Assembly (NCBI GenBank): GCA_944389195.1
Contig: CALXLM010000002.1
Span: forward strand, 1 to 64,000
Length of the DNA stretch: 64,000 nt
Source of the DNA: an uncultured Opitutales bacterium
Lineage (GTDB): Bacteria; Verrucomicrobiota; Verrucomicrobiia; Opitutales; Intestinicryptomonadaceae
Direction of reading: 5' to 3'
The notes under the pieces are model-generated. The model was not told the origin of the DNA, ran no database searches, and saw only the letters and a list, made by a program, of their open reading frames with translations. Numbering within the stretch: the first letter of the stretch is position 1; each line of letters begins with the position of its first letter. Below, piece by piece: positions 6,701 through 11,703 of the stretch. A program made the position numbers and the translations under genes.

Positions 6701-8971
6701 CTATCTACCCTCAGATATCTTTGCGTCGTCGATATACAGCGACGAAGACGAGTCCAAGTTTCCGACAAATACGGACAAGCTCGCAAGGCGCGTTCCTTTT
6801 GGGGATTTTGCAACTATGCGCAGTTTTCCGAAATCGAAGAATCCCGACGGCAGTTGTTGGCGCTTCGACATAATCGTCTTTCCACGCTTGTCGTAAAAAG
6901 AGAGGCGCAGATAACATACGTCGCCAGCCTTCAGCTCTCCGTAAACTTTAGCTTCGGCAACGCAGGTTTTACCTTCGGAAATAGCTGCAGCTTGGGTAAG
7001 GCCGACAAAATTTTTTGAGGACATTTTCACGGAATATTTTCCAGAACTGGATAGTTTGTCGGTTATGACCAGCTTTTCCGAGCATCCTCCGGTTTTATAG
7101 GGACTCCATTTTTCGATTCCGTTTTCAAAATCGGAATTCAGTGTCTTTTCTGAGGCGTTTCTTGCCCTGCATGCGGTTTCCGCAAATTCCGCCCCGAACA
7201 ATTCCACGATGCGATTTGATATTTCTGGAATTTCGAGCGCCAGTAAATCCTCCGCTGCGTTTTCGGTTGCGTCTATGAAACTCATTTTTTCCCATATTGA
7301 AAAGTTGGATTTAGGATATTTTGTATTTTCATGATAGCGCCTTAGTGCGAGCCGCTTGCGGAGTTGCGCTATCTTGACCGCTTCGACAGTCGAAAGAATT
7401 TCTGCCGAATTTGCACGCGTGGCGCCAGGACGGAAAAAAAGTTTTTTTTGGAGATTATAGGTGTCGATAAAGGCCTTTGTAATATCGAAAACGAGCCGTA
7501 TTTCCATGATTCTATCGCGCGCGGTTCGGCATAGATAGGGAAGGCGTTCCGCGGCAGAAAGGGCGGCCTCCATCTTGGAGATGCTGCCGGAGTCGAGAAC
7601 CTCGGCTTGCGATTCCCGCTTAAACAATTTAAGCCATGAGTTTTTTACGTTTCTTTTGGTCCATGCGGCTTCGGCTACGGAGAAAAATTCCCTAATGTAC
7701 GGGGCGGCCTCTTTATAGTATGAGTCGAAAAATTCGCTTTCGATTTTCCCAGCGTCGGCGTCGGCGTTTTTTAGCATGGAGGTAATCACCCACATTTTGT
7801 GGGCGTCGTACGCCCATACGGGGGTGCTTTCGCATGTGTATAGGGTTGCGCCGCATTCGCACGCGAATTTAATAGATTCAGCCTCTATGCGCGCCGATCC
7901 GCGCGGAACAAAATAATGCAATCCGTAGTTATAGCTGTATATCCCGAGCCGCCCAACGCCTGAAGCCGCCCAACTTCTTATGAGTTCAGAGTCGATTTTT
8001 TTTTGGGTTTCGTCGAAGTTTTTGGAGCGATCCACGCAGAGGTATATGGCTGTGTTCGGGTGCATTTTGAAATCTGGCGGAGTTTCGGTGTACAGATATG
8101 CGAGCTCGCCGACGAATTTTCCGGGAAAATCCGTAGAGGCGCGCGCAGCAACCGAGTTTGTAAACGAGAACACGGCGTTTCCGTAATCTTCGTACCCGTG
8201 GGGGGTGGGGCGCCGGCGCAACATGAGCGTTTTTTGCGTGTCGTCGAAAGTGGGGGCGTCGGAATACGATGCGGAAAAAATTTTTTTCGACGGATTTTTC
8301 CTGAAAAAAACCCTTGCGTGCCAAGCCACAAATGCGCTGACGTCCCTGTTTAGAAAATCTATCTGCGGGTGTTTGCTTTCCGAGAAGCCTTTTCTGGCTC
8401 CTCCGCGCATCGCCAACCACTCAGGGTGCTTTTGCGCCACTTTTGGGTTTACGATTTTTCTTATGTTGTGGTTTTCCACAAGATAGGAGTCATTTTCCCC
8501 GTTGGCGAGATTGTAGGTTTTGTTTCTCGACGGGCTGAAATCGAAAAAACGGCCTAAATAAGAGAACTTTTTTGAGATTTTTCCGACCGGAATTTTTGTG
8601 CGTCCGTCTCGTTCCAAGCCCAGAGGGGGCGGCGCCATCACTTTTAGGCCGAGAAACTCTCTTGCGAATTCCCCGACGGCGGCTGGGGCGTCGTTTTCGT
8701 CGGAGTATTTTATCGACGCTTTTTTGCAAGACGCGCTCAAGATTATTTTTCCCTCTTGGCCTGAAAATTTTCCTAACTCTATTTCGTATCCTTCCGGCGT
8801 GTCCACACCGCTGGCAAATCCGAGCTTTTGCAGCAGATTAACGGCTTCGAGCTCCGGTTTCGAAATGCGGTCAGCGTGCAAGACGCGGGCATTCCAGCCT
8901 TTGCCCTTGCCGCCGGCCAAACAAACGACCGCGGCGCACGCGCAGGCAAGCGCTGTGAAGAAAATACGCAT
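6701..8971 (-). CDS. Secreted DUF4838-family putative glycoside hydrolase with C-terminal carbohydrate-binding-like domain
   Basis: This 756-residue protein starts with a Sec signal (MRIFFTALACACAAVVCLAG). The middle, about residues 80-500, fits the DUF4838 family of exported alpha-glucuronidase-like proteins: LGIYSYNYGLHYFVPRG, CESTPVWAYDAHKMWVIT, and a helical tail EFFDSYYKEAAPYIREFF. The last 150 residues (NSDFENGIEKWSPYKTG... to LYIDDAKISEG) have the shape of a CBM4/9-like beta-sandwich. It lies divergent from the fibre-like gene at 9137 and the two share a short regulatory region with an inverted repeat. It is the one predicted degradative enzyme in the glycan synthesis locus. The start is set by the signal peptide; 30 extra in-frame codons upstream look non-coding. 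Confidence 0.8.
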   Translation of the reverse strand: MRIFFTALACACAAVVCLAGGKGKGWNARVLHADRISKPELEAVNLLQKLGFASGVDTPEGYEIELGKFSGQEGKIILSASCKKASIKYSDENDAPAAVGEFAREFLGLKVMAPPPLGLERDGRTKIPVGKISKKFSYLGRFFDFSPSRNKTYNLANGENDSYLVENHNIRKIVNPKVAQKHPEWLAMRGGARKGFSESKHPQIDFLNRDVSAFVAWHARVFFRKNPSKKIFSASYSDAPTFDDTQKTLMLRRRPTPHGYEDYGNAVFSFTNSVAARASTDFPGKFVGELAYLYTETPPDFKMHPNTAIYLCVDRSKNFDETQKKIDSELIRSWAASGVGRLGIYSYNYGLHYFVPRGSARIEAESIKFACECGATLYTCESTPVWAYDAHKMWVITSMLKNADADAGKIESEFFDSYYKEAAPYIREFFSVAEAAWTKRNVKNSWLKLFKRESQAEVLDSGSISKMEAALSAAERLPYLCRTARDRIMEIRLVFDITKAFIDTYNLQKKLFFRPGATRANSAEILSTVEAVKIAQLRKRLALRRYHENTKYPKSNFSIWEKMSFIDATENAAEDLLALEIPEISNRIVELFGAEFAETACRARNASEKTLNSDFENGIEKWSPYKTGGCSEKLVITDKLSSSGKYSVKMSSKNFVGLTQAAAISEGKTCVAEAKVYGELKAGDVCYLRLSFYDKRGKTIMSKRQQLPSGFFDFGKLRIVAKSPKGTRLASLSVFVGNLDSSSSLYIDDAKISEGR

Positions 8972-9085
8972 GTTTGCAAATATTGGGCGGACTCGTAATT
9001 TTGTCAAACATAACGGCCTTTCCCCGCGCAAAAATCGCCGCTTGCGCCTGCATGCGCGCAAGCGGTTGGTACCCTTTTATCAAAA

Positions 9086-9107
9086 GTTTCAAAAGTTCTT
9101 TTGAAAC
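9086..9107. promoter_or_regulatory. 10-bp inverted repeat, likely operator
   Basis: GTTTCAAAAG (9086-9095) and CTTTTGAAAC (9098-9107) are perfect inverse copies separated by TT. The right arm covers the -35 box (9101-9106) of the fibre-like gene, and the site lies between divergent genes. Position and symmetry suggest a dimeric regulator site; a hairpin is less likely because no T-run follows. Confidence 0.55.
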
Positions 9108-9128
9108 GCCGGCCGAGGGAAATATAAT
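9101..9128 (+). promoter_or_regulatory. Sigma70-like promoter of the fibre-like gene
   Basis: TTGAAA (9101-9106), 16 bases, then a perfect TATAAT (9123-9128). The expected transcript start, about 7 bases on, is within two or three bases of the ATG at 9137, implying a leaderless or nearly leaderless message. Confidence 0.6.
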
Positions 9129-9136
9129 TGTCGGCA

Positions 9137-11383
9137 ATGAACTCGATAAGCGATACAGAAAACATAGTCAGGATAACGGCGGACGCAAAAAAATTCGATT
9201 CGCCGTCGGACGCCGACACGGGATCGACCGTAAAATTTAGGCAGTTCGACGGAGTGCGCGTGGACGTCGTTTTCAGAATCAACGGCGCGCTTGCCGACTT
9301 GTCCAAAGCGGCGTACGCGGAACTTGAAATAGCCGACATCGGAACGCTCAACGCTCCCGAGCCGCGCACGGCAAGGGTTTTAGCCAGAAAACGCGTCGAG
9401 GCTTCGGAATTAAACGTCTCCATAGGCGAAGATGCGATTCTCAGCGGCGCCAGCCATGCGTCGTTTTTGCTGAAAAGGGAAGAGACCTCCATGGACGCCG
9501 GGGAAAAATGGATGCGCATATATGTGGTGGATTCTGAAGGTTCCAGAACGTCTTTTGCAAACGGTTGGGTTTTTGTGGAACCCACATACGGTGAAGATGC
9601 GAATGTAGTGCCGCCTGACGATTACAGGTTCGTTTTGAAGGCGCGTGAAACCGCCTTGATGTCCGAAGGGTACGCACTTGGGGAGCAGGACGGCATAGGC
9701 GTCGGAAGCGATTCGGTATATTTTGAAAAAAATTCGAGGTATTTTGCGCAGTCGGCCGAGGAAAATGCAAAAAACGTGCATCTTTTCAGCGAGTCCGCCC
9801 AGTCCTACGCCAAGAGCGCGGAGGAGTATTCTAAAAAGGCGGGGTCATATTCGTCCGAATCGTCGAGCAACGCCACGTTGGCGCGCAACTATTCCAAAAG
9901 CGCCGGCGAATCCGCTTCAGAAGCTGCCGAACTATTGGCCAGCGTTTCTCAGATAGCCGATCCGTCGGGCATATTGCCGCTTGTTCAGAAACAGCTTCAC
10001 CGCATGGAAAACGTCGGATTCTTTGAGCTCGAACACGGCAGCATGGAATCAGAAGAATTTGTTTCGCCCACATGCTTTTCGTTTTGTATAACCGTTTCGG
10101 AAGACTATACGGGGCGCCTGTTTAAAAAGGGAAGATTGGAACTTTCGATAAATTCCGACCGCAAGGTGGTATTGTCGGACGGCATTGACGAGGAGCAATC
10201 TTCCAATCCGCTTCCGCTGGCGGAGACTGCCATCGTATTAATCGCAAACAGGGAAAGCGTCAGCGTGTTGGCAAACGGGAAAACATACATTGAGGGGTTT
10301 ATATTTATGCCGGACGGGCTGTCCAACAGGCTTTATATCGGTTCTGACGATACCGTCGGAAGGCTGAGCAGAATTAAAATGTTCAATTTCGACATGTCTG
10401 ACGGGCGATTTCCGTATTGCGCCGACGACTATTTCGCCTCTTTGGACGAGAACCCGCGCCTAAATTGCCAACCTTCAAACTCAGGCCATCGGTATTTCGC
10501 AAAGTTAAACAGGGGAGAAATATCCGAGGACGGGCGGACGTTTTCGTTTTCAAATATCACGACGCAAACGGCGGTTTATGTACGCAATACAAACGAACCG
10601 GAAAACTACTCTCCATCGTATTTCAAAAATTTCGGGGGGAAATTTCACATAAGGATTCGCATACGTGTCGATGCCGTGTCGAGCGTGATGATTCAGTATT
10701 ATACAAACGGAGATATGAATTCGTTAGAGGGAATGGACTATGTTGTGACAGACACGTCCGATTCCACCGTTAAAAGGGGATACATGTCGGCTTCAACGGC
10801 AGGCGTGATTTACTTCGGATCGCTGCTGAATCCTGGGAGGGAAATGGTGCTTGATATGGTCTTCAGGCAAAAAGAGGAACTGTTTTTCGAAGGCGATATA
10901 GATTCGTTTTTTAGGTTTACGGTATCTTCCACCGGAGGGGTTTCGGGTTATTTTGCCCTTGATGATTTTTCATTCGCATCTTCGGAGATTTCTTTGCCCG
11001 ATAGTTCGGGGTTGTTTCAGATAAGCGACAACTCTTACAATAACAGAAATTTTACGTTAAAAGGAAACGCCTTTTCCCAAAAGGAAAGCAACCCGGCATT
11101 GTGCAGGGAAAGTTTTTCATGGGCTTCAACCGCCTCTACGCAGGCGTTTTTTAACGGTAAAGAGCTGCCTAAAAACTGTTTCGTTGAAATTTACGCAAGA
11201 CCTTCCGCCGATGGCGAGTTTTCGTATCAATTAAACGGCATGGAAACGTCGGCGGATCTCGTCGCGGGCGAAATGAAGATGGTCGGTTCTTTTGCGACAA
11301 ACGGCGATTCGCAATTGCTTGTGTGCCCGACGGGAATATATGCCGGTACACTTGAGTCGTTTGTGTCGGTAAAGCGCTTTTAA
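9137..11383 (+). CDS. Phage tail-fibre/baseplate-like protein with LamG-type domain
   Basis: I do not recognise a close family. The 748-residue protein has no signal peptide. Residues 1-155 form a beta-rich module (VDVVFRINGALADLSKAAYAELEIADIG... FANGWVFVEPTYG) resembling N-terminal baseplate/tail attachment domains of phages. Residues about 195-275 are a coiled-coil stretch rich in Ser/Ala with heptad-like repeats (SAEEYSKKAGSYSSESSSN, ARNYSKSAGESASEAAELL), typical of tail fibres. Residues about 295-430 fit a LamG/concanavalin-like sandwich, followed by more beta-rich receptor-binding-like sequence. The ATG is preferred because the promoter leaves almost no leader; a TTG at 9128 with AGGGA seven bases upstream is the alternative. 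A small gene follows 21 bases on. A role as an exported binding protein of the glycan locus is equally possible. Confidence 0.6.
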   Translation: MNSISDTENIVRITADAKKFDSPSDADTGSTVKFRQFDGVRVDVVFRINGALADLSKAAYAELEIADIGTLNAPEPRTARVLARKRVEASELNVSIGEDAILSGASHASFLLKREETSMDAGEKWMRIYVVDSEGSRTSFANGWVFVEPTYGEDANVVPPDDYRFVLKARETALMSEGYALGEQDGIGVGSDSVYFEKNSRYFAQSAEENAKNVHLFSESAQSYAKSAEEYSKKAGSYSSESSSNATLARNYSKSAGESASEAAELLASVSQIADPSGILPLVQKQLHRMENVGFFELEHGSMESEEFVSPTCFSFCITVSEDYTGRLFKKGRLELSINSDRKVVLSDGIDEEQSSNPLPLAETAIVLIANRESVSVLANGKTYIEGFIFMPDGLSNRLYIGSDDTVGRLSRIKMFNFDMSDGRFPYCADDYFASLDENPRLNCQPSNSGHRYFAKLNRGEISEDGRTFSFSNITTQTAVYVRNTNEPENYSPSYFKNFGGKFHIRIRIRVDAVSSVMIQYYTNGDMNSLEGMDYVVTDTSDSTVKRGYMSASTAGVIYFGSLLNPGREMVLDMVFRQKEELFFEGDIDSFFRFTVSSTGGVSGYFALDDFSFASSEISLPDSSGLFQISDNSYNNRNFTLKGNAFSQKESNPALCRESFSWASTASTQAFFNGKELPKNCFVEIYARPSADGEFSYQLNGMETSADLVAGEMKMVGSFATNGDSQLLVCPTGIYAGTLESFVSVKRF

Positions 11384-11404
11384 CTCTAACTGAAAGGCAA
11401 AACA

Positions 11405-11659
11405 ATGTCAGATGAAAACGCGCCTGCCGCAGAATTTAAAGCGGCTGATAAAATGATAATGCTGAAGGAGGGAGTATTCGCGTCGGTAAAAAACGCGAAA
11501 ATAACCTTCGATCTTGTGGATTCCGAGGGGAAGCCTATAATGTCGGGAGGAAACGTACAATCTCCGGGGTCTCTGGCGGAATTTTCGGGGGTGTCTCTTT
11601 CGGGGATCGGAGTGTCGGGGAATGCGCTGTGCGAGCGCGTATTCCCGCAATCCGAATAG
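11405..11659 (+). CDS. Small acidic protein of unknown function
   Basis: This 84-residue protein (MSDENAPAAEFKAADK...) has no signal peptide, no membrane segment and one Cys. It reads as a short beta-rich unit (KEGVFASVKNAKITFDLVDSEGKPIMSGGNV). It starts 21 bases after the fibre-like gene with AAGG (11394-11397) at fair spacing, and a terminator follows, so the two form one transcript. In phage-like settings such a gene could be a fibre chaperone or a small tail protein; I see no direct evidence for either. Confidence 0.6.
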   Translation: MSDENAPAAEFKAADKMIMLKEGVFASVKNAKITFDLVDSEGKPIMSGGNVQSPGSLAEFSGVSLSGIGVSGNALCERVFPQSE

Positions 11660-11672
11660 TGCCGGTTTCCAC

Positions 11673-11703
11673 GGTCCGTCCCAATGCGGGACGGATCTTT
11701 TTT
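11673..11703 (+). terminator. Rho-independent terminator after the fibre-like operon
   Basis: The stem TCCGTCCC (11675-11682) with GGGACGGA (11688-11695), extendable by G-U and G-C pairs, has a 5-base loop and is followed by six T's (11698-11703). Confidence 0.9.

Follow-up and report, generated by a model that had tools for sequence, protein, structure and literature searches.

A phage-type fibre gene in a glycan locus and a proposed dispersed gene-transfer-agent-like element in an Opitutales bacterium

What does a tail-fibre-like gene do among polysaccharide genes, with no other phage gene beside it? Such a gene and a small companion lie in the window, that is, the stretch of 64,000 nucleotides at the start of contig C2 (CALXLM010000002.1, assembly GCA_944389195.1) of an uncultured Opitutales bacterium. 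Below, the genome that carries the window is called G000, and its family is called f1. The explanation that we consider probable is that the pair forms a detached fibre locus of a domesticated phage-derived particle resembling a gene transfer agent (GTA), whose genes are dispersed in the genome and inherited vertically.

The fibre-companion locus and its product

The fibre gene (9137-11383, plus strand) encodes a protein of 748 aa, and the companion gene (11405-11659, plus strand) encodes a protein of 84 aa. Both score as coding; the longest reading of the fibre frame starts at a TTG at 9128. The first-pass annotation had placed the pair at these coordinates, amid glycan genes and away from phage genes, with a promoter, an operator-like site and a terminator of its own, and each part of this description was borne out. 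The neighbours are a GT2 gene, a Bac_transf sugar transferase, a member of the UDP-glucose dehydrogenase family and an NAD epimerase, and no phage genes were recognised among the genes neighbouring the pair in the window. A sigma-70-like promoter, TTGAAA-16-TATAAT (9101-9128, plus strand), agrees with the consensus at 11 of 12 positions. Since its -10 ends 8 nt 5' of the ATG, the fibre transcript is probably leaderless. The perfect inverted repeat GTTTCAAAAGTTCTTTTGAAAC (9086-9107, unstranded) is unique in the window, with 0 expected from shuffles, and it overlaps the shared motif described below. A predicted intrinsic terminator with a 10-bp stem (11673-11697, plus strand) closes the two-gene unit. 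On the minus strand, a strong stem-loop followed by T-rich sequence is located at 9038-9065, close to where the divergent gene at 6701-8971 begins; it may act as an attenuator or mark where a short transcript ends.

To describe the fibre protein, we used an AlphaFold model built with a 14-sequence alignment. The model has an N-terminal attachment domain (9137-9616, plus strand, residues ~1-160) whose beta fold covers residues ~10-150 with a pLDDT of 81-96, apart from one weaker loop. Structure comparison matched this domain to the N-domain of the TP901-1 protein BppU (ORF48; 3uh8, Z 10.6, rmsd 2.6 over 112 residues), to the TP901-1 baseplate (4v96, Z 11.2) and to the baseplate of phage 80alpha (6v8i, Z 9.3). 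The match to the baseplate-anchor domain of BppU agrees with the earlier reading of the protein as a phage-type fibre. No similarity to the BppU family could be recognised by sequence in Pfam or the PDB. Therefore, we call the modelled domain BppU-like by fold and do not file the protein as a member of that family. It is followed by a Ser/Ala-rich helical (coiled-coil) shaft, seen in both sequence and model (9704-10009, plus strand, residues ~190-291), with helices at residues 194-237, 243-273 and 276-291 in the modelled helical stretch 194-291. The C-terminal receptor-binding region (10013-11380, plus strand, residues 293-748) is fast evolving in the alignments and has a conserved block that ends in the motif RIKxFNFDxS. 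Beyond residue 292 the pLDDT is mostly <50, and AlphaFold does not resolve the fold. Thus, of the domain order proposed at first, the beta N-domain and the helical stretch stand. The LamG-like label could not be confirmed: residues ~293-452 have no Pfam match to a LamG fold, and the model is unreliable there. A weak resemblance of residues 472-601 to picornavirus capsids (Z ~6) was taken as a common jelly-roll arrangement and set aside.

Searches with the fibre sequence returned nothing useful in Pfam, PHROGs, the PDB, the GenBank phage collection or IMG/VR, and the C-terminal region as the sole query had no match in IMG/VR. In relatives, the tail-fibre repeat NLxDLxDxxxARxNLG can be read from the sequences after the N-domain. 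Because of this repeat and the match of the BppU-type N-domain, the protein is a baseplate-anchored receptor-binding fibre. The companion is modelled as a small beta protein with a pLDDT of 64.

The structural cluster and the shared promoter motif

The first-pass annotation had asked whether tail genes are encoded elsewhere in the genome. It turned out that contig C20 of G000 carries a compact phage-like cluster of a Mu-type portal, a protease, a cement protein, a capsid, connectors and a hub-like gene, and this cluster has no fibre. The portal gene was found by profile at C20:53646-54653, and the capsid gene lies at C20:56227-57144. The TerL gene (C20:48815-50155) is located ~3 kb from the cluster on the opposite strand. 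Matching of the cluster homologues to Pfam and PHROG profiles gave Portal_Mu, Terminase_6C, a Mu-like protease, cement and a major head protein. A holin-like gene on contig C53 (54709-55164) is a homologue of the gene that heads the main cluster in families f10, f20, f21 and f26. Portal_Mu and the capsid each have a single match in G000, so there is no second Mu-like phage in this genome for the fibre to serve. The flanks of the C20 cluster are metabolic (ApbE, cupin, HU, polyprenyl synthetase, GlutR and similar), and neither an integrase or transposase nor an early region is present in them. Thus, the genes of the element are spread over several host loci, with the fibre on C2, the portal operon and TerL on C20 and the holin-like gene on C53. 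In the relative G036, TerL is separated from the main block by 1.6 Mb of contig. Next to the TerL block, G016, G036 and G102 have the neighbour seen in G000, a lipoprotein-like ORF (3-keto-disaccharide hydrolase by Pfam in G000).

TerL is also adjoined by a gene of the HU/IHF family in G000, G016, G036, G102 and G155, confirmed by Pfam in G000 and assigned by sequence elsewhere. Genes of this type were located at 12212-12481 of L065, 9836-10108 of L251, 11986-12261 of L252, 10442-10732 of L253 and 11473-11754 of L254. By analogy, this gene may be functional for the element, because IHF co-activates the Caulobacter GTA.

Comparison with other families shows where a fibre could belong in the cluster. 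In f7, f25, f27 and f28, which include reduced genomes of 0.7-1.1 Mb, a gene with the same N-domain lies inside the compact cluster, in the order TerS-TerL-portal-protease-cement-capsid-c6-c2-c3-fibre-(40-50 aa)-c4-c15. In G000 and f1 the slot between c3 and c4 is empty and the fibre is elsewhere. The slot in G000 is marked by a short coiled-coil gene (C20:58453-58602) directly after c3 and before c4. Coiled-coil peptides of 40-54 aa are found in the clusters between c3 or the fibre and c4, a position usually taken by a gene of 500-1100 aa in related phages; possibly this peptide is a minimal spacer or a tail-length element. Neither a tape measure nor a tail tube was recognised in the element. 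A search of f1 for the tail-tube-like gene of related phages found nothing, but it was run without a positive control and by itself shows nothing; a short tail, or one of another construction, is possible.

The fibre, portal, TerL and holin-like genes have a common 25-bp element, TCAAAANNNNCMAAAGTWNNTTTGC, upstream. In relatives, the motif at most of the fibre and portal sites ends 31-34 nt upstream of the ATG, with a -10-like hexamer in between. Discovery of the motif was not blind, as G000 was inspected when it was first seen; the position weight matrix (PWM) was then trained on other species only, and the G000 sequences were left out of it. Over 214,720 positions (~107 kb) of G000, the top match was the fibre site (9080-9104, plus strand; score 34.4), followed by the portal (29.0), TerL (28.9) and holin-like (28.8) sites; the next match scored 14.4. 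None of 200 column-shuffled matrices placed more than one of the four sites in its top four. A pattern scan of the whole 2.37 Mb of G000 gave five sites with 0 mismatches, namely these four and one near a contig end. Sites outside the training set were also found in other species: at the fibres of G189 and G016, the TerL operons of G016, G036, G102, G155 and G081, the portals of G203 and G081 and the holin-like genes of G127 and G197. The motif is absent from the Mu-like prophages of G036, G115, G081 and G102, where the maximum score is 13. Other families reach at best 17, which is the background level, and the motif is therefore taken as specific to f1 on the present sequences.

The fifth perfect site (C34:94142-94163; 8141-8226 in L247) starts 84 bases before the contig end. 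The ORF after it begins METRIKTQF and is cut by the end of C34, and a second, weaker copy of the motif is located 27 bp upstream. Judging from this arrangement, the ORF is likely a further member of the regulon.

Two observations link the fibre with the C20 element. In f7, f25, f27 and f28 it fills the position that is empty in f1, and in f1 its locus has the promoter motif of the portal, TerL and holin-like loci. The cassette is also tied to the element because in some f1 genomes (G036, G182, G102 and G115) it includes a second element gene, the holin-like one. The first-pass annotation had proposed a domesticated binding device. A domesticated fibre of phage type in a glycan locus agrees with our results, but the device does not stand alone, as the rest of the phage-like particle is encoded on C20 and C53. 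The isolation of the gene in a glycan locus, with its own promoter and terminator, would also suit a stand-alone adhesin or defence lectin at the cell surface, unconnected with the C20 cluster. We give this explanation hardly any credence: no signal peptide or surface anchor was seen in the fibre sequence, the N-domain is of the baseplate-anchor type, the motif and the swapped position are common with the cluster, and the companion occurs beside a prophage fibre as well.

Inheritance, selection and phage origin

If the fibre is a part of a domesticated element, how is it kept in the family? The N-domain profile found exactly one copy in 15 of the 18 searchable f1 genomes. G203 has a C-terminal fragment of the fibre at a contig edge, and in G145 and G197 the profile search did not find the fibre, though both have the capsid. 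The genome G067 was left out of the searchable set; its apparent joint absence of capsid and fibre was dropped as evidence, since even a TopA search gave no candidate there. Being a single copy that the family has retained throughout, with a lineage-specific promoter, the fibre can be called domesticated, as was suggested at first. We also looked in relatives for a complete prophage immediately beside the region and saw a different picture: the f1 fibre and companion are separate from phage genes and always away from the structural cluster.

The f1 fibres have seven distinct contexts. They adjoin a single GT2 gene (G000, G081 and G016), UDP-sugar dehydrogenase/WecB-type genes (G155 and G136) or GT2/GT1 genes (G165 and G127). 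The neighbour is a RidA-like gene in G036, G182, G051 and G189, and G036 and G182 also have a gene read as rhamnulokinase there. In the three remaining contexts the neighbours were read from sequence as a sigma-54-type regulator (G115 and G102), a Tex-like gene (G173, with downstream genes common to G203) and OmpH/BamA-like genes (G208). Surface-glycan genes are thus next to the fibre in three of the seven contexts. In f1 genomes, the fibre is directly followed by a homologue of the companion. The holin-like gene of G165 lies beside the RidA-like gene and the gene read as rhamnulokinase, with the fibre elsewhere; G036 and G182 have fibre, companion and holin-like gene at this place. The arrangement of G165 reads as a relocation of the fibre.

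The capsid gene is present in all 18 searchable f1 genomes and is 57-77% identical to that of G000 in a cross-family alignment. Beyond certain families of the order its occurrence is patchy, the pattern expected of a phage gene. The capsid+portal tree shares 22 of 39 splits with the TopA tree (shuffles: mean 0.25, maximum 3), and all families with at least two members are monophyletic in both trees. Distances correlate strongly within f1 (Mantel r 0.92). The structural genes are thus inherited vertically with the host within f1; at the deepest level, between families, this is uncertain because r falls to 0.24. The element genes are under purifying selection, with dN/dS of 0.03-0.30 where dS is finite (it is saturated for many pairs), and the fibre evolves fastest. 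The tree of the fibre N-domain agrees weakly with the host (r 0.22, permutation p 0.07) and with the capsid (r 0.26, p 0.05), which is expected of a fast or exchanged gene and is not proof. The fibre of G036 has a C-terminal part with 85% identity over 213 residues to the corresponding part in a resident Mu-like prophage, and the N-termini differ. This sequence match indicates that the receptor-binding parts have been exchanged.

The element has larger relatives among phages. Phages in IMG/VR (L102, L104, L106-L112 and L123) have the same gene order, TerL-portal-protease-cement-capsid-c6-c2-...-c3-fibre-...-c4, and the same fibre N-domain. Mu-like siphophages of Verrucomicrobiota differ from the compact element in having an extra gene of ~313 aa, usually the large gene between the fibre and c4, and many more genes; Mu-like prophages have additional early-region genes, which the element does not. 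In the G036 prophage (L069/L070), the fibre is followed by the companion, as in the unit described here. From such larger phages the compact element appears to have descended by reduction. Larger Mu-like prophages were seen in G036, G115 and G081 (L069/L070, L073/L074 and L084). Many IMG/VR contigs (L090-L125) have capsids with 35-58% identity, and L090 (58%) has the N-domain gene; some of the short ones may have been classed as viruses although they are fragments of domesticated clusters.

Could the fibre and the C20 cluster be functionless leftovers of a decayed Mu-like prophage? The cluster does derive from Mu-type phages, to judge by Portal_Mu, the Mu-like protease and cement; its gene order is found in bona fide phages too; and the tape measure is not recognised. 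Nevertheless, we find decay very unlikely. The frames are open in nearly all f1 species, dN/dS is well below 1, the capsid is present in all 18 searchable f1 genomes, sites are syntenic, the tree is host-congruent, and a common promoter motif is kept at four separate loci. Decay would not preserve such features.

Proposed function and comparison with known systems

Several features of GTAs that can be tested in sequence are present, and we name the element GTA-like on these grounds. TerL, portal, capsid and protease are phage-derived, the genes occupy several host loci, there is no integration or self-replication module, inheritance is vertical, and the shared promoter motif suggests coordinated control. 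We propose that one activator would bind the motif and turn on the portal-to-hub and terminase operons on C20, the holin-like gene on C53 and the fibre-companion pair together. Capsids would assemble, and the terminase would fill them with DNA, presumably that of the host. The BppU-like N-domain of the fibre would dock on the tail or hub, and the helical shaft would project the variable C-terminal region, which could bind a surface glycan on a recipient cell, probably a related one. Lysis by the holin-like protein would release the particles, and genes could be transferred in this way.

A domesticated phage particle that is not a GTA, one that serves killing or signalling or packages something besides random host DNA, would use the same conserved genes. 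Packaging specificity cannot be read from sequence, and the tail parts look minimal. We consider such a particle unlikely: TerL, portal, protease and capsid are conserved under selection, which points to DNA packaging. Tailocins have no heads.

Under the GTA-like reading, the position of the fibre can be given a meaning. Possibly, and we suggest this only tentatively, the fibre was repeatedly moved beside glycan genes so that it would be passed on jointly with the glycan that it recognises. This would amount to kin recognition, with DNA delivered preferentially to cells with the same glycan. If so, the kin-recognition element would be the first GTA in Verrucomicrobiota, and a single promoter motif could define its regulon; a literature search, thin on subscription papers and preprints, found no report of a GTA in this phylum. 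With the fibre located among glycan genes, it becomes possible to test directly how recipient recognition is tied to the surface glycan. It is also worth asking what benefit the element brings, since related, mostly single-copy clusters are kept in streamlined genomes of 0.7-1.1 Mb within this order, from which DNA without a use should disappear. Few lineages are known to have GTAs, and their likeness to broken prophages makes them difficult to recognise (PMC11841831). The position swap, co-conservation and the promoter motif tie the dispersed pieces together here, and they make a sequence test that could find a whole regulon.

Known GTAs offer the closest comparison. They typically have a multi-locus layout with accessory loci of one or two genes (PMC11841831). 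The course of events proposed above is that of RcGTA (Rhodobacter capsulatus), in which a tail fibre encoded outside the cluster binds capsule polysaccharide (PMC7296036, PMC10218006). The element described here is like RcGTA in its host-inherited head-tail cluster with other parts at other loci, which in RcGTA are the tail fibre Rcc00171 and the head spikes Rcc01079/01080 (PMC7296036, PMC10218006, PMC11841831). It differs in its phage ancestor (with a Mu-type portal here), its phylum, the BppU-type anchor and the lineage-specific promoter motif. In Caulobacter crescentus, one activator system (GafY/GafZ) with IHF binds the main cluster and ~18 accessory promoters (PMC11150451). Similarly, one motif marks the dispersed loci here, and an HU/IHF-family gene lies beside TerL; however, the motif adjoins the promoter and overlaps the -35, whereas that of Caulobacter is far upstream. 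Finally, the fibre resembles BppU (ORF48) of TP901-1 and baseplate proteins of phages of Gram-positive bacteria in having the same N-domain fold followed by a helical shaft. In contrast to BppU, with which no sequence similarity was detected, the fibre carries its presumed receptor-binding part on the same chain.
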